From Streptomyces flaveolus (GTDB lineage: Bacteria > Actinomycetota > Actinomycetes > Streptomycetales > Streptomycetaceae): a stretch of 64,000 nt of DNA. This document shows positions 3,108 to 12,807 of the stretch, one piece after another. Each line of letters opens with the position of its first letter. Positions within the stretch are counted from its first letter, which is position 1. The notes beneath the pieces are model-generated. The model saw only the letters and a list, made by a program, of their open reading frames with translations. It made no database searches and was not told the origin of the DNA. Location of the stretch: the NCBI RefSeq assembly GCF_000716535.1, contig NZ_JNWV01000026.1, positions 62,001 through 126,000 on the forward strand. Direction: 5' to 3'. Both the position numbers and the translations under genes were made by a program.

Positions 3108-4274
3108 TCACTCGGCGGCGGGCACCGCCGCCTGGGGCTCCGGTCCCACGTACCGCGCCACCGGGCGGATGATCTTCGGGTCGGCGGCCTGTTCCAGGAT
3201 GTTGGCGCTCCAGCCCACGACCCGCCCCGCCGCGAAGGTGGGGGTGAACATCTCCCGTGGCAGGCCGCACAGTTCCATGACCACGCCGGCGTAGAACTCC
3301 ACGTTCGTGTGGAGTTCGCGGCCGGGCTTCAGCTCGGCGAGGATGGCCTCCACGCGGCGCTCGACCTCCACCGCGAAGTCCACCCGCGGACCGCCGAAGC
3401 CGAGGGCGATCTCGCGCAGCATCCGGGACCGCGGGTCCTCCGTGCGGTAGACGGCGTGCCCGAAGCCCATGATCCGATCGCCGGCGAGCACCCGCTCGCG
3501 GATCCAGGCGTCGATCCGGTCGGGCGTGCCGATCGCGTCCAGGGTGTCCAGGGCCCGACTGGGCGCGCCTCCGTGCAGGGGCCCGGACAGGGCGCCGACG
3601 GCACCGGTCAGGCAGGCCGCCACGTCGGCGCCCGTGGAGGCGATGACGCGTGCGGTGAAGGTTGACGCATTGAATCCGTGATCAATGGTTGAGATCAGGT
3701 ATTGCTCGACCGCACGCGCCCGGCGCGGTTCCGGTTCCGAACCGGTCAACATGTACAGGTAGTTGGCCGCGTACGAGAGGTCCTCACGCGGCTCGACCGG
3801 GTCGAGGCCGCGACCGAGCCGGTACAGCGCGGTGAGCAGGGTGGGTACGGCCGCGCAGGCGGCCACGGTGTCGGCGCGGCGCCGGTCGGCGTCGATGTCG
3901 TACACCGGCCGGAAGCCCCGCGCCGCGCCGAGCAGGGACAGCGCCGTGCGCAGTCCGGCCAGTGGTCCGGAGCTCCGCCCGGCCGCGGCGATGGCGGGCA
4001 GGGCCGCGCGGACGTCATCGGGCAGGCCCCGCAGCGCGGCGGTCTCGGCGGCGAAGGCGGCACCGCGCCGGGCGTCCGGGAGGGTGCCGTGGACCAGGAG
4101 GTGCCAGACGTCCTCGAAGCTCCGGGTGCGCGCAAGGTCGACGGCCGGGTACTGGCGGTAGTGGTAGAAGCCCTCCCGGCCCCGGACGTCACCGATCTCG
4201 GTTTCGGTGACGACGACGCCGGCGAGTCCGCGCGGGGCGTCGATGAGCGGGGTGGCGGTCGTGTGGACGGCCAT
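3108..4274 (-). CDS. Citrate synthase family protein
   Basis: Citrate synthase-fold enzyme of 388 residues, condensing an acyl-CoA (acetyl- or propionyl-CoA) with an oxoacid. The family landmarks are in place: GPLHGGAPSRAL (first substrate histidine), MGFGHAVYRTEDPR (catalytic histidine and arginine), and the C-terminal ELHTNVEFYAGVVMELCG block with the catalytic aspartate position occupied by Glu (NVEFYAG rather than NVDFYSG). The ATG at 4272-4274 is preceded by GGGAGGG at good spacing; an in-frame extension upstream lacks a ribosome site. It is divergent from the HTH-citrate synthase at 4390 with a 115-bp shared control region. The main tricarboxylic-acid-cycle citrate synthase is normally elsewhere in Streptomyces, so this pair may serve a methylcitrate-like or specialised role. 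Confidence 0.85.
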   Translation of the reverse strand: MAVHTTATPLIDAPRGLAGVVVTETEIGDVRGREGFYHYRQYPAVDLARTRSFEDVWHLLVHGTLPDARRGAAFAAETAALRGLPDDVRAALPAIAAAGRSSGPLAGLRTALSLLGAARGFRPVYDIDADRRRADTVAACAAVPTLLTALYRLGRGLDPVEPREDLSYAANYLYMLTGSEPEPRRARAVEQYLISTIDHGFNASTFTARVIASTGADVAACLTGAVGALSGPLHGGAPSRALDTLDAIGTPDRIDAWIRERVLAGDRIMGFGHAVYRTEDPRSRMLREIALGFGGPRVDFAVEVERRVEAILAELKPGRELHTNVEFYAGVVMELCGLPREMFTPTFAAGRVVGWSANILEQAADPKIIRPVARYVGPEPQAAVPAAE

Positions 4275-4339
4275 GATTTCCCTCCCGGTTCTGTCTCTGA
4301 ACTTGATCCGACTGTCCATGCTTGACTGGTTCCGTGTCA

Positions 4340-4358
4340 ACGTTGATTGAATCAATGT
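4340..4358. promoter_or_regulatory. Near-perfect palindrome in divergent citrate synthase promoter region
   Basis: TTGATTGAATCAA (4343-4355) is a perfect odd-centre palindrome and extends to ACG...TGT (4340-4358) with one mismatched pair. A second, looser inverted repeat, TTGAC-N9-GTCAA, lies at 4322-4340. On the minus strand TTGACA (4335-4340) is a plausible -35. The site lies in the shared spacer of two divergent genes, one of which carries its own DNA-binding domain. Confidence 0.6.
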
Positions 4359-4389
4359 CTAGTCATCAAGGTGTGCAGAGGCGACTACG

Positions 4390-5655
4390 GTGACCCCCAT
4401 GCGCGATCACGACACCGCTCCCCACCGTCCCGGGCACCGGCTGAGCACCAAGGAGACCGCCGAACTGCTCGGCGTGAAGCCCGAGACGGTCTACGCGTAC
4501 GTGAGCCGCGGCCTGCTCAGCAGCAGACGCGAACCCGGCGGCCGGTCCAGCACGTTCGAGGCCAAGGAGGTGGAGGCCCTCGCCCGCCGCAACCGGCGCG
4601 AGGCGGCCGGGAGCCCGGGATCCGGCGGGGACCTGTCCGTCCGCACCCGGATCACGCTCATCGAGCAGGACCGGTACTTCTACCGGGGCGTGGACGCCGT
4701 CGACCTGGCCACCAGCCGCTCCTACGAGGAGGTCGCCGAGTGGCTGTGGACCGGCCGGCCGGCCCCCGGGGTGACGTTCTCCGCGCCCGCGGCCACCGTC
4801 GAGGTCGCCCGCCGCGCGGTGGACGCCCTGTCCGAACACGCCTCCCCGGTCGACCGGCTGCGGGTCGCCGCGATCGCCGCTGCGGCCGAGGACCCGCTGC
4901 GCTTCGACCTGTCCGAGGACTCCGTGCTGAACACGGCGCGCGTCCTCATCCCGACCCTCGTCGCCGCGCTCCCACCCGTCCGTGCCGACCACAAGGACGG
5001 CGGGCCGCTGGCGCAGCGCCTGTGGGGGCGGCTGACCGGCCACCCGGCCGACGAGGCCTCCCTGCGCGTCCTGGACACCGCGCTCGCGCTGCTCGCCGAC
5101 CACGACCTGGCCGCGTCCACGCTGGCGGTCCGGGTCGCCGCCTCGGCCCGGGCGCACGCGTACGCGGCCGTCTCCGCCGGGCTCGGCGTGCTGGAGGGCC
5201 CGCTGCACGGCGCCGCCAGCGGCCTGGCCCACCGGATGCTCCTGGACGTCCTCGACCAGGGCACGGCGGTCCCCGTGATCGCCGACGAACTGCGCGCGGG
5301 CCGCCGCGTCCCCGGTCTCGGCCACCGGCTGTACGCGGGCGAGGACCCCCGCGCGCGGGTCCTGTTCGGCCTCCTGGAGCAGGTCCCGCGCGCGGAGTCC
5401 GCGCTGCTCGCGGCCCGTGACATCGTCGCGACGACCGCCCGGCACACCCCGCTGCACGCCAATGTGGACCTGGCCCTCGCGGTGTTCACGGCGTCCAGCG
5501 GCATGCCGGCCACCGCCGGTGAGACGATCTTCGCCGTCGCACGGACCGCGGGCTGGATCGCCCACGCTCTGGAGGAGTACGGCGAGCGCCCGCTGCGCAT
5601 GCGCCCCAGCGGCCACTACGTCGGTCCGCGCCCGCCGCAGCCCCTGCCGGACTAG
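4390..5655 (+). CDS. Citrate synthase with N-terminal MerR/excisionase-type helix-turn-helix
   Basis: 421-residue fusion. Residues about 15-65 (LSTKETAELLGVKPETVYAY, then a Gly-Arg turn and an E-V-E-A-L helix) form a winged MerR/excisionase-like DNA-binding domain. Residues about 80-421 are a citrate synthase fold: GVLEGPLHGAASGL, VPGLGHRLYAGEDPRAR and the C-terminal PLHANVDLALAVFTASSG, where the catalytic Asp is retained. GTG at 4390 has AGAGG eight bases upstream; ATG at 4399 is the alternative. The enzyme domain is more divergent than its neighbour at 3108-4274. I infer that it senses acyl-CoA, oxaloacetate or citrate and controls the divergent promoter, as a trigger enzyme would; whether it still catalyses is open. 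Confidence 0.85.
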   Translation: MTPMRDHDTAPHRPGHRLSTKETAELLGVKPETVYAYVSRGLLSSRREPGGRSSTFEAKEVEALARRNRREAAGSPGSGGDLSVRTRITLIEQDRYFYRGVDAVDLATSRSYEEVAEWLWTGRPAPGVTFSAPAATVEVARRAVDALSEHASPVDRLRVAAIAAAAEDPLRFDLSEDSVLNTARVLIPTLVAALPPVRADHKDGGPLAQRLWGRLTGHPADEASLRVLDTALALLADHDLAASTLAVRVAASARAHAYAAVSAGLGVLEGPLHGAASGLAHRMLLDVLDQGTAVPVIADELRAGRRVPGLGHRLYAGEDPRARVLFGLLEQVPRAESALLAARDIVATTARHTPLHANVDLALAVFTASSGMPATAGETIFAVARTAGWIAHALEEYGERPLRMRPSGHYVGPRPPQPLPD

Positions 5656-6785: not shown

Positions 6786-8465
6786 ATGAGCCCCACTCCC
6801 CCCGCCCGCCGGCTGCGCCTCGGTCTGCCACGACGGATGTTCTCCCAGGTGCTGCTGATGCAGGTGGCGATCGCCGCGGGAGTCGCGGTGCTCGCGACCG
6901 GGCTCTTCCTCGCCCCGCTGAGCAAGCAGCTCGACCAGGAGGCGATGCGCCGCGCGCTGGCCATCGCCGAGACCACCGCCCAGGACCCGCAGATCGCCGA
7001 GGGCGTCCTGACCACCCCGCCGACCCGGAACGGCCCGGTGCAGGAGGAGGCCGAGCGGATCCGGCGGGCCACGCACGCCGAGTACATCGTGGTGCTGGAC
7101 CGGGACTGGGTGCGCTGGTCGCATCCCACGGCCTCGGAGATCGGCCGGCGCGTCTCCACCGACCCCACCGACGCCCTGGCCGGCCGGGAGGTCATGGAGA
7201 TCGACAGGGGCACCCTCGGACGCTCGGCGCGCGGCAAGGTGCCGCTGTACGACGCCGGTCACCACATCGTCGGCGCGGTCTCCGTCGGCATCGCCTACGA
7301 CAGCGTGCGGGCGCGGCTGATCAACGCGATCCCGGGCCTGTTCGCCTACGCCGGTGGAGCCCTCGCGGTGGGCGCGCTGGCCGCCTGGCTGATCTCGCGC
7401 CGGGTCCAGCGGCAGACCCGGGACCTGGCCTTCTCCGACATCTCGGCGCTGCTGGCGGAGCGCGAGGCGATGCTGCACGGCATCCGGGAGGGCGTGGTCG
7501 CCCTCGACCGGGGCGGCCGTGTCCGCCTGCTGAACGACGAGGCACGGCGGCTGCTGGGCATCGGCGACGAGGCCGTCGGACGGACCCCGGACGAGGCGCT
7601 CGGCGCGGGCCGTACGACGGACGTGCTGGCCGGCCGGGTGACCGGCACCGACCTGCTCACCGTGCGCGGCCATCGTGTCCTGGTCGCCAACCGCATGCCC
7701 ACCGACGACGGCGGCGCGGTGGCGACCCTGCGCGACCGCACCGAACTGGAACAGCTGGGACGCGAACTCGACTCCACGCGCGGGCTGATCGACGCCCTGC
7801 GCGCCCAGGACCACGAACACGCCAACCGCATGCACACCCTGCTGGGGCTGCTGGAGCTGGAGATGTACGACGACGCCGTGGAGTTCGTCGGCGAGGTGGT
7901 CGGGGACCACCGGGCCACCGCCGAGCAGGTCACGGAGAAGATCCAGGACCCGCTGCTGGCCGCGCTTCTGGTGGGCAAGGCGACCGTGGCGGCCGAGCGC
8001 GGGGTCGCCCTGTGGGTGTCGGAGCGCACCCGGCTCCCTGACCGGTTGATCGATCCCCGCGGCCTGGTCACGGTCATGGGCAACCTCGTGGACAACGCTC
8101 TCGACGCGGTCGCGGGCACACCGCACGCGCGCGTGGAGGTCGAGTTGCGCGCGGAGGGCCGTACGGTCGTCCTGCGGGTGCGCGACACGGGCCCCGGGAT
8201 CCCCGAGGACCAGCGGGAGCTGATCTTCACGGACGGGTGGTCCACCAAGAAGCCGCCCGCGCACGGCAAGCGGGGCATCGGGCTCTCCCTGGTGCGCCGG
8301 CTCGCCGAGCGGCAGGGCGGGAGCGCGACCGTGGGCGCGGCGGCCGGCGGGGGCGCGGAGTTCACCGTGGTCCTTCCCGAGGCGCTGACCGAGCCGGAGC
8401 TGGAACCGGCGGTGTCCGAGGGGTCCGTGCAGATTGCTGCCGTCGCCGAGGAGGAAGCGCGATGA
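6786..8465 (+). CDS. CitA/DcuS-type sensor histidine kinase
   Basis: 559-residue membrane sensor. It has a transmembrane helix at about 20-40, an extracytoplasmic Cache/PAS-like sensor to about 175, a second helix at about 180-205, a cytoplasmic PAS domain (about 215-320), and the dimerisation/phosphotransfer helix with RAQDHEHANRMH, where His343 is the expected phospho-acceptor. The ATPase domain follows: NLVDNALDAV (N box), DTGPGIP (G1) and GKRGIGLSLVRRL (G2). The family usually senses small carboxylates. ATG at 6786 is chosen because TACGGT (6773-6778) sits 7 nt upstream, typical of a leaderless start; ATG 6780 is equally in frame. Its stop overlaps the next gene's ATG by 4 nt, so the two are translationally coupled. 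Confidence 0.88.
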   Translation: MSPTPPARRLRLGLPRRMFSQVLLMQVAIAAGVAVLATGLFLAPLSKQLDQEAMRRALAIAETTAQDPQIAEGVLTTPPTRNGPVQEEAERIRRATHAEYIVVLDRDWVRWSHPTASEIGRRVSTDPTDALAGREVMEIDRGTLGRSARGKVPLYDAGHHIVGAVSVGIAYDSVRARLINAIPGLFAYAGGALAVGALAAWLISRRVQRQTRDLAFSDISALLAEREAMLHGIREGVVALDRGGRVRLLNDEARRLLGIGDEAVGRTPDEALGAGRTTDVLAGRVTGTDLLTVRGHRVLVANRMPTDDGGAVATLRDRTELEQLGRELDSTRGLIDALRAQDHEHANRMHTLLGLLELEMYDDAVEFVGEVVGDHRATAEQVTEKIQDPLLAALLVGKATVAAERGVALWVSERTRLPDRLIDPRGLVTVMGNLVDNALDAVAGTPHARVEVELRAEGRTVVLRVRDTGPGIPEDQRELIFTDGWSTKKPPAHGKRGIGLSLVRRLAERQGGSATVGAAAGGGAEFTVVLPEALTEPELEPAVSEGSVQIAAVAEEEAR

Positions 8466-9142
8466 TCGAGGTCCTGGTCGTGGACGACGACACCCGTGTC
8501 GCCCGGGTCAACGCCGCATACGTGGAGAAGGTACCCGGCTTCCATGTCGCCGGTGAGGCGCACAACGCGGCGGAGGCGCTGCGCCAGGTCGAGGCGCTGC
8601 CCCGGCTGGACCTCGTCCTGATGGACCACTACCTGCCCGACGACACGGGTCTCGCGGTGGTCCAGGAGATGCGCCGGCGCGGCCACCAGACCGACGTGAT
8701 CATGGTGACGGCCGCGCGGGACGTGTCGACGGTGCAGGCGGCCATGCGCCAGGGCGCGCTGCAGTACCTGGTGAAGCCGTTCGCCTTCGCCGGTCTGCGG
8801 GCGAAGCTGGAGGCGTACGCCGAGCTGCGGCGCACCCTGGACGGCGGCGGGGAGGCCGAGCAGGCGGAGGTGGACCGCATCTTCGGTGCCCTGTCGGCCC
8901 CGTCGGAGCCCGGGCTGCCCAAGGGCCACTCCCCCACGACGGCCGAGTTGGTGCGCCAGGCACTGCTGAACGCCGAACGCCCCCTGTCCGCACAGGAGAT
9001 CGCCGAGCGTACGGGGGTGAGCCGGCAGACCGCCCAGCGGTACCTGAAGCTCCTGGAGCGCACGGGCCGGGCCCGGCTGACCCTCAAGTACGGCGACGCG
9101 GGCCGCCCGGAACACCGTTACGTGTGGGCGACCCGCGCCTGA
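8462..9142 (+). CDS. CitB/DcuR-type response regulator
   Basis: 226 residues: an N-terminal receiver domain (VLVVDDD acidic pocket, phosphorylatable Asp in LVLMDHYLPD, Lys in YLVKPF) and a C-terminal winged HTH (LSAQEIAERTGVSRQTAQRY) typical of the CitB family. Coupled to the kinase by an ATGA overlap, so it is the cognate partner. It ends 24 nt from the convergent ABC substrate-binding gene. It is strikingly similar to the regulator at 12115-12807 over its whole length, including the linker phrase VDRIFGAL and the C-terminal LKYGD-GRPEHRY, so the two are recent paralogues. Likely target: the ABC importer between them. Confidence 0.9.
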   Translation: MIEVLVVDDDTRVARVNAAYVEKVPGFHVAGEAHNAAEALRQVEALPRLDLVLMDHYLPDDTGLAVVQEMRRRGHQTDVIMVTAARDVSTVQAAMRQGALQYLVKPFAFAGLRAKLEAYAELRRTLDGGGEAEQAEVDRIFGALSAPSEPGLPKGHSPTTAELVRQALLNAERPLSAQEIAERTGVSRQTAQRYLKLLERTGRARLTLKYGDAGRPEHRYVWATRA

Positions 9143-12054: not shown

Positions 12055-12114
12055 CTACAACTGCGGAGCCGAAACACGGGCTGAACGCTCGCCGGCCTTG
12101 TGAGGAGAGGCCTG

Positions 12115-12807
12115 ATGATTGACGTCCTGGTGGTCGACGACGACTTCCGTGTCGCTGAGATAAACGCCAAGTACGTGGGAAAGGTTCCCGGCTTCCGGGT
12201 GGCCGCCCGCGCGCACAGCGCCGCCCAGGCCCTGGCCGCCGTGGAACGCGGCTCCATCGACCTGGTCCTGCTCGACCACTACCTGCCGGACCAGACCGGC
12301 CTCGAACTCGTGCACCGCATGCGCGAGCAGGGCCACGGCACCGACGTCATCATGATCACGGCGGCCAGCGATGTGACGACCGTCCAGCAGGCGATGCGCC
12401 TGGGCGCCCTGCACTACCTCGTCAAGCCCTTCACCTTCGCCGCGCTGCGGACCCGCCTGGACTCCTACGCCGCCCTGCGCCGCACGGTCGACCGGGTGGG
12501 CGGCCGGGGCCTGACGGGTCAGGAACAGGTCGACCGGATCTTCGGCGCCCTGCGCACCGCCCCCGCCCCTTCCGCGCCCGGCCTGCCGACCGGCCACTCC
12601 GAGCCCACGACCGACCTCATCTGCGGTGTCCTGCACCGCGCCGACCATCCGCTCTCGGCCCACGAGGTGGCCGCCCGCACCGGCCTGAGCCGCTCCACCG
12701 CCCAGCGCTATCTCCGCCACCTCGAACAGGCGGGCCGTCTCCGCCTCTCCCTGAAGTACGGCGACACCGGCCGTCCGGAACACCGGTACGCCTGGGTGGC
12801 GCCGTAG
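12115..12807 (+). CDS. CitB/DcuR-type response regulator, orphan paralogue
   Basis: 230 residues with the same architecture as the regulator at 8462-9142: receiver (VLVVDDD; Asp in LVLLDHYLPD; VKPFTF) and winged HTH (LSAHEVAARTGLSRSTAQRY). The start ATG follows GGAGAGG by 5 nt. No kinase is adjacent, and the phosphorylation residues are intact, so it may be driven by the CitA-type kinase 4-5 kb away or by a distant one. It is divergent from the ABC importer, whose promoter region carries repeated motifs, so it is the best candidate to regulate that operon. Confidence 0.88.
   Translation: MIDVLVVDDDFRVAEINAKYVGKVPGFRVAARAHSAAQALAAVERGSIDLVLLDHYLPDQTGLELVHRMREQGHGTDVIMITAASDVTTVQQAMRLGALHYLVKPFTFAALRTRLDSYAALRRTVDRVGGRGLTGQEQVDRIFGALRTAPAPSAPGLPTGHSEPTTDLICGVLHRADHPLSAHEVAARTGLSRSTAQRYLRHLEQAGRLRLSLKYGDTGRPEHRYAWVAP

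Follow-up and report, generated by a model that had tools for sequence, protein, structure and literature searches.

What does a citrate synthase do with a DNA-binding domain, and is it the protein that reads the palindrome beside its own gene? This question is raised by a 64,000-nucleotide stretch of the Streptomyces flaveolus genome (the window, whose first letter is position 1 in the coordinates below), in which a gene for a helix-turn-helix (HTH) domain fused to a citrate synthase is divergent from a second citrate synthase gene. A first-pass annotation of this DNA had seen here an autoregulated trigger enzyme, in which acyl-CoA or oxaloacetate binding to the citrate synthase fold would control DNA binding. 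From comparison with related genomes, we consider it probable (at roughly 0.77) that the fusion protein is a transcription factor reading TTGAT-n3-ATCAA with its active-site residues intact, that is, a trigger enzyme built on citrate synthase. Carbon becomes committed to the citrate cycle at the citrate synthase step, and a version of this enzyme with a DNA-binding domain, an operator, and a target in trans would link central carbon flux directly to transcription. Such a regulator might help explain the several citrate synthase genes in Streptomyces (four in the window's genome), and the family would offer candidate sensors of acyl-CoA or oxaloacetate.

Results

The fusion gene (SCO5831-like, 'citA3'; 4399..5655, plus strand) encodes 418 amino acids. 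Residues 15-66 (4441..4596, plus strand) form a winged HTH of HTH_17/MerR type, as judged by Pfam, alignment, and structural model, and Pfam and alignment place a citrate synthase domain at residues 80-403 (4636..5607, plus strand; Citrate_synt, PF00285, E 3.6e-62). The partner (SCO5832-like, 'citA4'; 3108..4274, minus strand, 388 amino acids) is Citrate_synt from end to end (E 9.9e-111), and domains and strands agree with the divergent arrangement described earlier. The earlier description of the HTH as a complete domain of the MerR/excisionase type holds: the match to HTH_17 (PF12728; E 1.9e-8, 34.9 bits, cut-off 27) is clear, but that of nearly the same residues to MerR (PF00376; E 1.3e-6) is marginal, at 28.6 bits just past a cut-off of 28.2. 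The Citrate_synt domain together with His270, His309, and Asp357 (codons 5206-5208, 5323-5325, and 5467-5469, plus strand), which we take to be the catalytic His, His, and Asp of citrate synthase, places the fusion in the citrate synthase/2-methylcitrate synthase family; its score stays below the curated cut-offs of all NCBIfam citrate synthase models listed. The architecture itself is already in the databases, as precomputed Pfam pairs and under names such as citrate synthase and helix-turn-helix domain-containing protein.

According to two papers, SCO5831 of Streptomyces coelicolor adjoins the sucrase/ferredoxin-like gene SCO5830 and the two-component system SCO5829/SCO5828 (PMC9739823) and has a common intergenic region with SCO5832 (PMC12323332). 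Because the neighbors and the intergenic region match these accounts, we take the window's genes to be the same pair as SCO5831/SCO5832 (citA3/citA4), which are annotated as citrate synthases. Expression, proteomics, and MtrA binding have been reported for these two genes in PMC12323332, PMC9739823, PMC8981147, and PMC7324645, whose accessible text makes no mention of an HTH, a palindrome, or a regulatory role of SCO5831.

The spacer between the two genes measures 124 bp (4275-4398) rather than the 115 bp first counted from a GTG at 4390, because the fusion start kept in relatives, and the likelier one, is ATG 4399 (beginning MRDH or MRDQ). The GTG falls within a conserved box, TACGGT (4386..4391, plus strand), which we read as the -10 box of a fusion promoter with a probably leaderless transcript. 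Both repeats that had been singled out in the spacer are present: a near-perfect 19-bp palindrome, P2 (ACGTTGATTGAATCAATGT, 4340..4358, with the core TTGATTGAATCAA at 4343-4355), which is the proposed operator of the fusion protein, and an inverted repeat, P1 (TTGAC-N9-GTCAA, 4322..4340). A partner promoter can be inferred on the minus strand from TTGACA (-35, 4340-4335, common with the right arm of P1), an interval of 18 bp, and GACAGT (-10, 4316-4311, conserved as ACTGTC). The conserved element TTGATCCGACTGTCCA (4303..4318) is the counterpart of an MtrA site predicted in S. coelicolor.

The first-pass annotation had suggested comparing the palindrome among related genomes, and it proved to be conserved where the gene pair is conserved. 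Among 80 named Streptomyces loci, the best 80 of 481 relatives, TTGA[TC]nnn[AG]TCAA is found within 260 nt upstream of the fusion in 74 (65 of them with exact TTGATnnnATCAA), against 3 of 4000 mononucleotide shuffles; TTGA[CT]-N8..10-GTCAA, the form of P1, occurs in 73 of the 80. These loci overlap with the Streptomyces genome set used below, and the two sets are not independent. The palindrome is also present in 24 of 27 further Streptomyces spacers, mostly those of more divergent fusions. Both groups of spacers are divergent apart from the conserved parts. The 76 loci with GTCAAnnTTGA give the consensus ACTTGATtcGACTGTCCATGcTTGACtnantnncTGTCAATATTGATTgAATCAAT, with conservation dropping sharply toward the fusion, and the distance from palindrome to fusion ATG ranges from 41 to 101 bp across loci. 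These distances (4343-4399 in the window, and counterparts in L005-L084) fall into groups near 43, 55, and 65, spaced about 11-12 bp apart, which at most hints that helix face matters; as the loci are related, we draw no inference from it.

The window's own 10.3-Mb genome has two exact occurrences of TTGATNNNATCAA and 20 sites with at most one mismatch to it, against 5 for a reversed-pattern control. Among those with a single mismatch is G000:C6:433524, which ends at -18 relative to the start of a class III CoA-transferase gene (PF02515, E 1.6e-50); this gene lies on another contig than the fusion and, in genomes assembled as one contig such as G079 and G013, more than 4 Mb from it. The same order of palindrome, CATAGT-like box, and ATG is found at the CoA-transferase gene in other genomes. 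At L156:1131-5734, two tandem genes that by eye resemble those of subtilisin-type peptidases adjoin the CoA-transferase gene on the same strand, the nearer of which stops 36 bp before the palindrome. Fifteen of the 20 sites were compared for further targets: L094 is the window's own site, L101 lies in a peptidase frame, and of the 13 others, one (L100) is the CoA-transferase site, seven lie inside a long high-GC3 frame, four lie in no such frame and have no start of one within 150 nt, and L103 is 29 bp before a predicted start. The recurring TTGATGCGATCAA was rejected, being found in five dissimilar contexts in five loci.

The distribution of the CoA-transferase site was compared with that of the fusion in 150 Streptomyces genomes. 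The fusion has matches in 103 of these (E<=1e-30), 96 of which were counted as true fusions (including one cut by a contig end, in G111, and four in pieces, in G101, G019, G136, and G148); G143 was counted as fusion-less, though a C-terminal remnant of the fusion remains. The CoA-transferase is present in 95 of the 150 (E<=1e-60), and its site was scored as the best match to ten fixed bases within 90 nt before the start, fragments in G111, G074, and G019 being excluded. Only these 90 nt were counted because in the window's own genome matches to TTGATCAAGTCAA sit in the peptidase coding region; G116 has a match of this form plus a 9/10 site in the promoter. Where the CoA-transferase is at least 70% identical (51 loci), at least nine of the ten fixed bases are present in 23 of 35 fusion-bearing genomes and in none of 16 fusion-less ones (Fisher p 6e-6, with relatedness ignored). 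The fusion-bearing G139 and G140 also carry TTGATTCCGTCAA at this promoter, giving 25 of 35 in all, and with these two counted in, 10 of the 35 have no 9-of-10 site; the fusion-less G066 and G021 score 8/10. At loci below 70% identity, the site is absent from all 20 fusion-bearing and all 21 fusion-less genomes, and the CoA-transferase is therefore a candidate target in part of the genus only. CATAGT or CACAGT is retained before the CoA-transferase ATG in 13 of the 16 fusion-less genomes, which indicates that the gene and its start were kept and the palindrome is gone. In a tree of 30 CoA-transferase proteins, five fusion-less genomes are scattered (5 changes), all five without the site; a tree-based pair test gave 3 to 5 independent losses with a median p of 0.5, these being too few pairs to reach significance.

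Genomes in which the fusion and the partner have come apart bear on which of the two the site follows. Across 392 Streptomyces genomes, the partner is found in 234 (E<=1e-120) and the fusion in 244 (E<=1e-60). Partner without fusion is seen in two, G026 and G111, and as the fusion of the latter is cut by a contig end, this case amounts to a single genome. In G026, the partner promoter retains GACTGTCCATG and the ACTGTC box, and both repeats are lost. Twelve genomes have the fusion only, ten of which were compared at both promoters (G687 and G101 have no CoA-transferase match). The palindrome, with 9 or 10 of the ten bases, is present at -30 of the CoA-transferase ATG in nine of the ten, and in four of these nine (G013, G106, G109, and G646), the fusion's own promoter is without it. 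G701 is a fusion-only genome without the CoA-transferase site; its spacer block at the fusion is intact, as is much of the block in G717 and G760, and the partner may thus have been missed or recently lost there. The CoA-transferase site thus follows the fusion rather than the partner or linkage, and this presence and absence supports the earlier idea that the fusion is the factor belonging to the palindrome. That the fusion is autoregulated is only partly supported: four of ten partnerless fusion genomes lost the site at the fusion's own promoter and kept that of the CoA-transferase. Autoregulation thus looks optional, and targets in trans seem to matter more.

Traces of rearrangement are visible at several of these loci. 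In G012 and G094 (L279, L284, L278, and L283), the partner match lies elsewhere with its first 88 and 36 residues missing, and the 5' coding end of the partner remains beside the fusion, as expected of rearrangements that cut the partner. An open reading frame of G143 (L340:6550-7158, minus strand, contig C42) begins like the antisense of the partner 3' end and continues into the C-terminal region of the fusion, apparently the scar of a deletion that removed the divergent promoters; G143 is also without a palindrome at the CoA-transferase gene.

Across 33 aligned proteins, with identity to the window's fusion down to 33%, His270, His309, and Asp357 are invariant, which argues that catalysis or ligand binding is under selection, and catalysis by the fusion is likely on this ground. 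The same 33 proteins share the HTH residues T30, Y32, and Y34-V35-S36-R37-G38 without exception. It had been noted that the partner has Glu in place of the catalytic Asp, and this is the case; the inference that roles are split between the two enzymes was dropped, as alignments place the same Glu in the solved structures 2c6x (Bacillus subtilis), 8gi7 (CitA of Mycobacterium tuberculosis), and 8gmf, and the change is, on these alignments, ordinary. A second HTH-citrate synthase in G003 (L147:722-1981, minus strand, contig C22) has lost the histidine of GPLHGG (GTAPGAA), so that the active site is not always kept; it may be a fusion-type protein that only regulates, and no TTGA-n2..12-TCAA repeat was found in its 3.5-kb locus.

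The structural model of the fusion (mean pLDDT 83) comprises a winged HTH at residues 14-70, a stretch at 68-81 with pLDDT below 50, and then the citrate synthase. This model and the two Pfam matches above cut-off agree on a complete DNA-binding domain on the enzyme, and the low-confidence linker gives no direct support for tight coupling of ligand and DNA binding. The nearest structures to the HTH model in a Foldseek search are RacA, Xis, BldC, and SoxR, several of them solved on DNA, although no match reaches E 0.001; the HTH alone found weak matches among PDB sequences, the best at E 0.016. MerR proteins have a dimerizing coiled-coil helix after the HTH. In the fusion, a helix at 55-70 is followed by the low-confidence stretch into citrate synthase, and with no coiled coil in this place, we do not file it as a classical MerR protein.

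Fusions of this kind extend beyond Streptomyces. Among 396 Actinomycetota genomes, 111 have a match of any kind (E<=1e-30), and HTH-aligned fusions are found in families of other classes; a protein 62% identical to one of these (query L317) belongs to an uncultured Rubrobacteraceae bacterium. In 12 other-class genomes, a second citrate synthase is divergent beside the fusion, with 28-681 bp between the matches. Upstream of 19 other-class fusions (37-50% identical to the window's; a partial match, L323, is left out), TTGAT-n3..7-ATCAA occurs in 13, and either this repeat or TCAAyrTTGAT lies within 200 nt in 15, against 0.16% of 3800 dinucleotide shuffles; 13 of the 19 loci come from one family (f18), so that these are not counts of independent cases. 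The repeat is also found in f29 (TCAACGTTGATCGAATCAACGTTGA, L319) and f20, and the half-site of P2 is conserved in these other classes. Its spacing is n3 in Streptomyces; of the 11 f18 loci that have the repeat, 10 show n6 and 1 shows n7.

Discussion

Comparison of these genomes brings out co-conservation of the fusion with its putative site, a candidate target in trans, and conserved active-site residues, and these suggest the following model. The MerR-type winged HTH of the fusion would bind TTGAT-n3-ATCAA as a citrate synthase dimer with two-fold symmetry. Within the window, it would sit on P2, and possibly on P1, next to and across the partner -35 box and so set expression of the partner; with the palindrome near the fusion's own promoter, it may regulate itself as well. 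In many Streptomyces, it would also control the class III CoA-transferase gene in trans, from a palindrome that fills the presumed -35/-10 interval and starts at position -30 relative to an ATG whose transcript is probably leaderless. Binding of oxaloacetate, acyl-CoA, or product in the active site probably alters DNA binding, which is a guess from the kept active site, and flux into the cycle or acyl-CoA supply would then set expression of the other two enzymes. In its full form, this proposal holds that a citrate synthase with catalytic activity has acted as a sequence-specific transcription factor from a time before several actinobacterial classes diverged and that its turnover or occupancy switches a small TTGAT regulon (the second citrate synthase, the CoA-transferase, and often itself) with no separate sensor; we offer this broader claim tentatively, at somewhat less than even odds.

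Other proteins could read the palindrome. It might be the site of the neighboring CitA/DcuS-type two-component regulator (SCO5828-like) or of some other, unlinked regulator, in which case the fusion would be only an enzyme, its HTH a relic. The genes for the kinase and the regulator are found about 1 kb downstream of the fusion, and PMC9739823 suggests that the two-component system might repress SCO5831. However, the histidine kinase is found in 135 of the 150 genomes (E<=1e-100), including 15 of the 16 fusion-less ones (all but G129), which all lack a 9-of-10 palindrome at the CoA-transferase, and, conversely, G100 has the fusion and the CoA-transferase site and G134 a site at the fusion, each with no kinase match. 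On this comparison of kinase and site distributions, we rejected the two-component system as reader of the palindrome, and the invariant HTH residues argue against a relic, which would not be expected to keep them; the explanation as a whole is unlikely. A regulator elsewhere in the genome whose loss always accompanied that of the fusion, or that was lost with the pathway, could mimic part of the pattern. A further alternative, that the spacer is mainly a control region of MtrA (or GlnR) and the repeats are part of it, draws on the report that a probe carrying a predicted site from the region between SCO5831 and SCO5832 was bound by MtrA and that both genes are higher in an mtrA mutant at late times (PMC12323332). 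The site predicted in S. coelicolor, TTGACTTAACTGTCCA, lies at -16 of the SCO5832 start (PMC12323332) and agrees in 12 of 16 bases with window positions 4303-4318; it thus corresponds to that element and not to the palindrome. Moreover, the part ACTGTCCATG stays in G026, where both repeats are lost, and the CoA-transferase promoters have the palindrome without an MtrA-like element. Since MtrA binds the spacer probe and lowers both genes, part of the spacer conservation may be MtrA's, but as an account of the palindrome we regard it as very improbable.

Two other readings accept that the fusion binds the palindrome and differ on how it acts. Binding could be constitutive, with the citrate synthase part providing only the dimer and no metabolite control, as the low-confidence linker and the G003 protein without the GPLHGG histidine would allow; against this stands the invariance of the three active-site residues down to 33% identity, and we find a merely structural role doubtful. 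The other reading makes the fusion an activator. The MerR operator dyad sits between -35 and -10, and relative to the putative promoters, the palindrome has this position at the CoA-transferase gene and not at the partner or the fusion. The start of the site at -30 in 9 of 10 CoA-transferase promoters and the poor -35 there recall MerR-activated promoters, and at the partner, the palindrome is just upstream of the inferred -35. On the other hand, the retention of CATAGT or CACAGT in fusion-less genomes, with no new -35 by eye, suits the removal of a repressor, and the variable distance at the fusion promoter also speaks against activation. Repression by the fusion therefore seems to us the somewhat likelier direction, and activation a possibility of lesser weight.

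There are precedents for a metabolic enzyme acting on transcription. Class II biotin protein ligases of the BirA type (see PMC3048393) carry an N-terminal winged HTH, act at a palindrome to regulate the genes of their pathway, and use the enzyme part as sensor; ligand coupling is established for BirA. The fusion resembles BirA in combining an enzyme, an N-terminal winged HTH, and a palindrome, but differs in enzyme fold and HTH family, and its ligand coupling is only proposed. MocR/GabR regulators join an HTH to the complete fold of a metabolic enzyme, an aminotransferase (PMC6917764); these belong to a GntR subfamily with another HTH and another enzyme, and the fusion keeps three catalytic residues. 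CitA of Caulobacter is a moonlighting citrate synthase that acts on CtrA control with its catalysis dispensable (PMC7083601), and it shares with the fusion the enzyme and a regulatory role, proposed in the latter case, whereas the accessible text of PMC7083601 describes no DNA-binding domain on it. Our search, which was weak in subscription journals and saw some sources only in part, found no literature on an HTH-fused citrate synthase as a regulator or on its operator.

Two response regulator genes lie further along the window, one at 8462-9142 (DcuR-like) and one at 12100-12807 (similar by eye), the latter with no kinase gene beside it in the list of open reading frames. Together, they flank a probable ABC transporter of the taurine/nitrate type.
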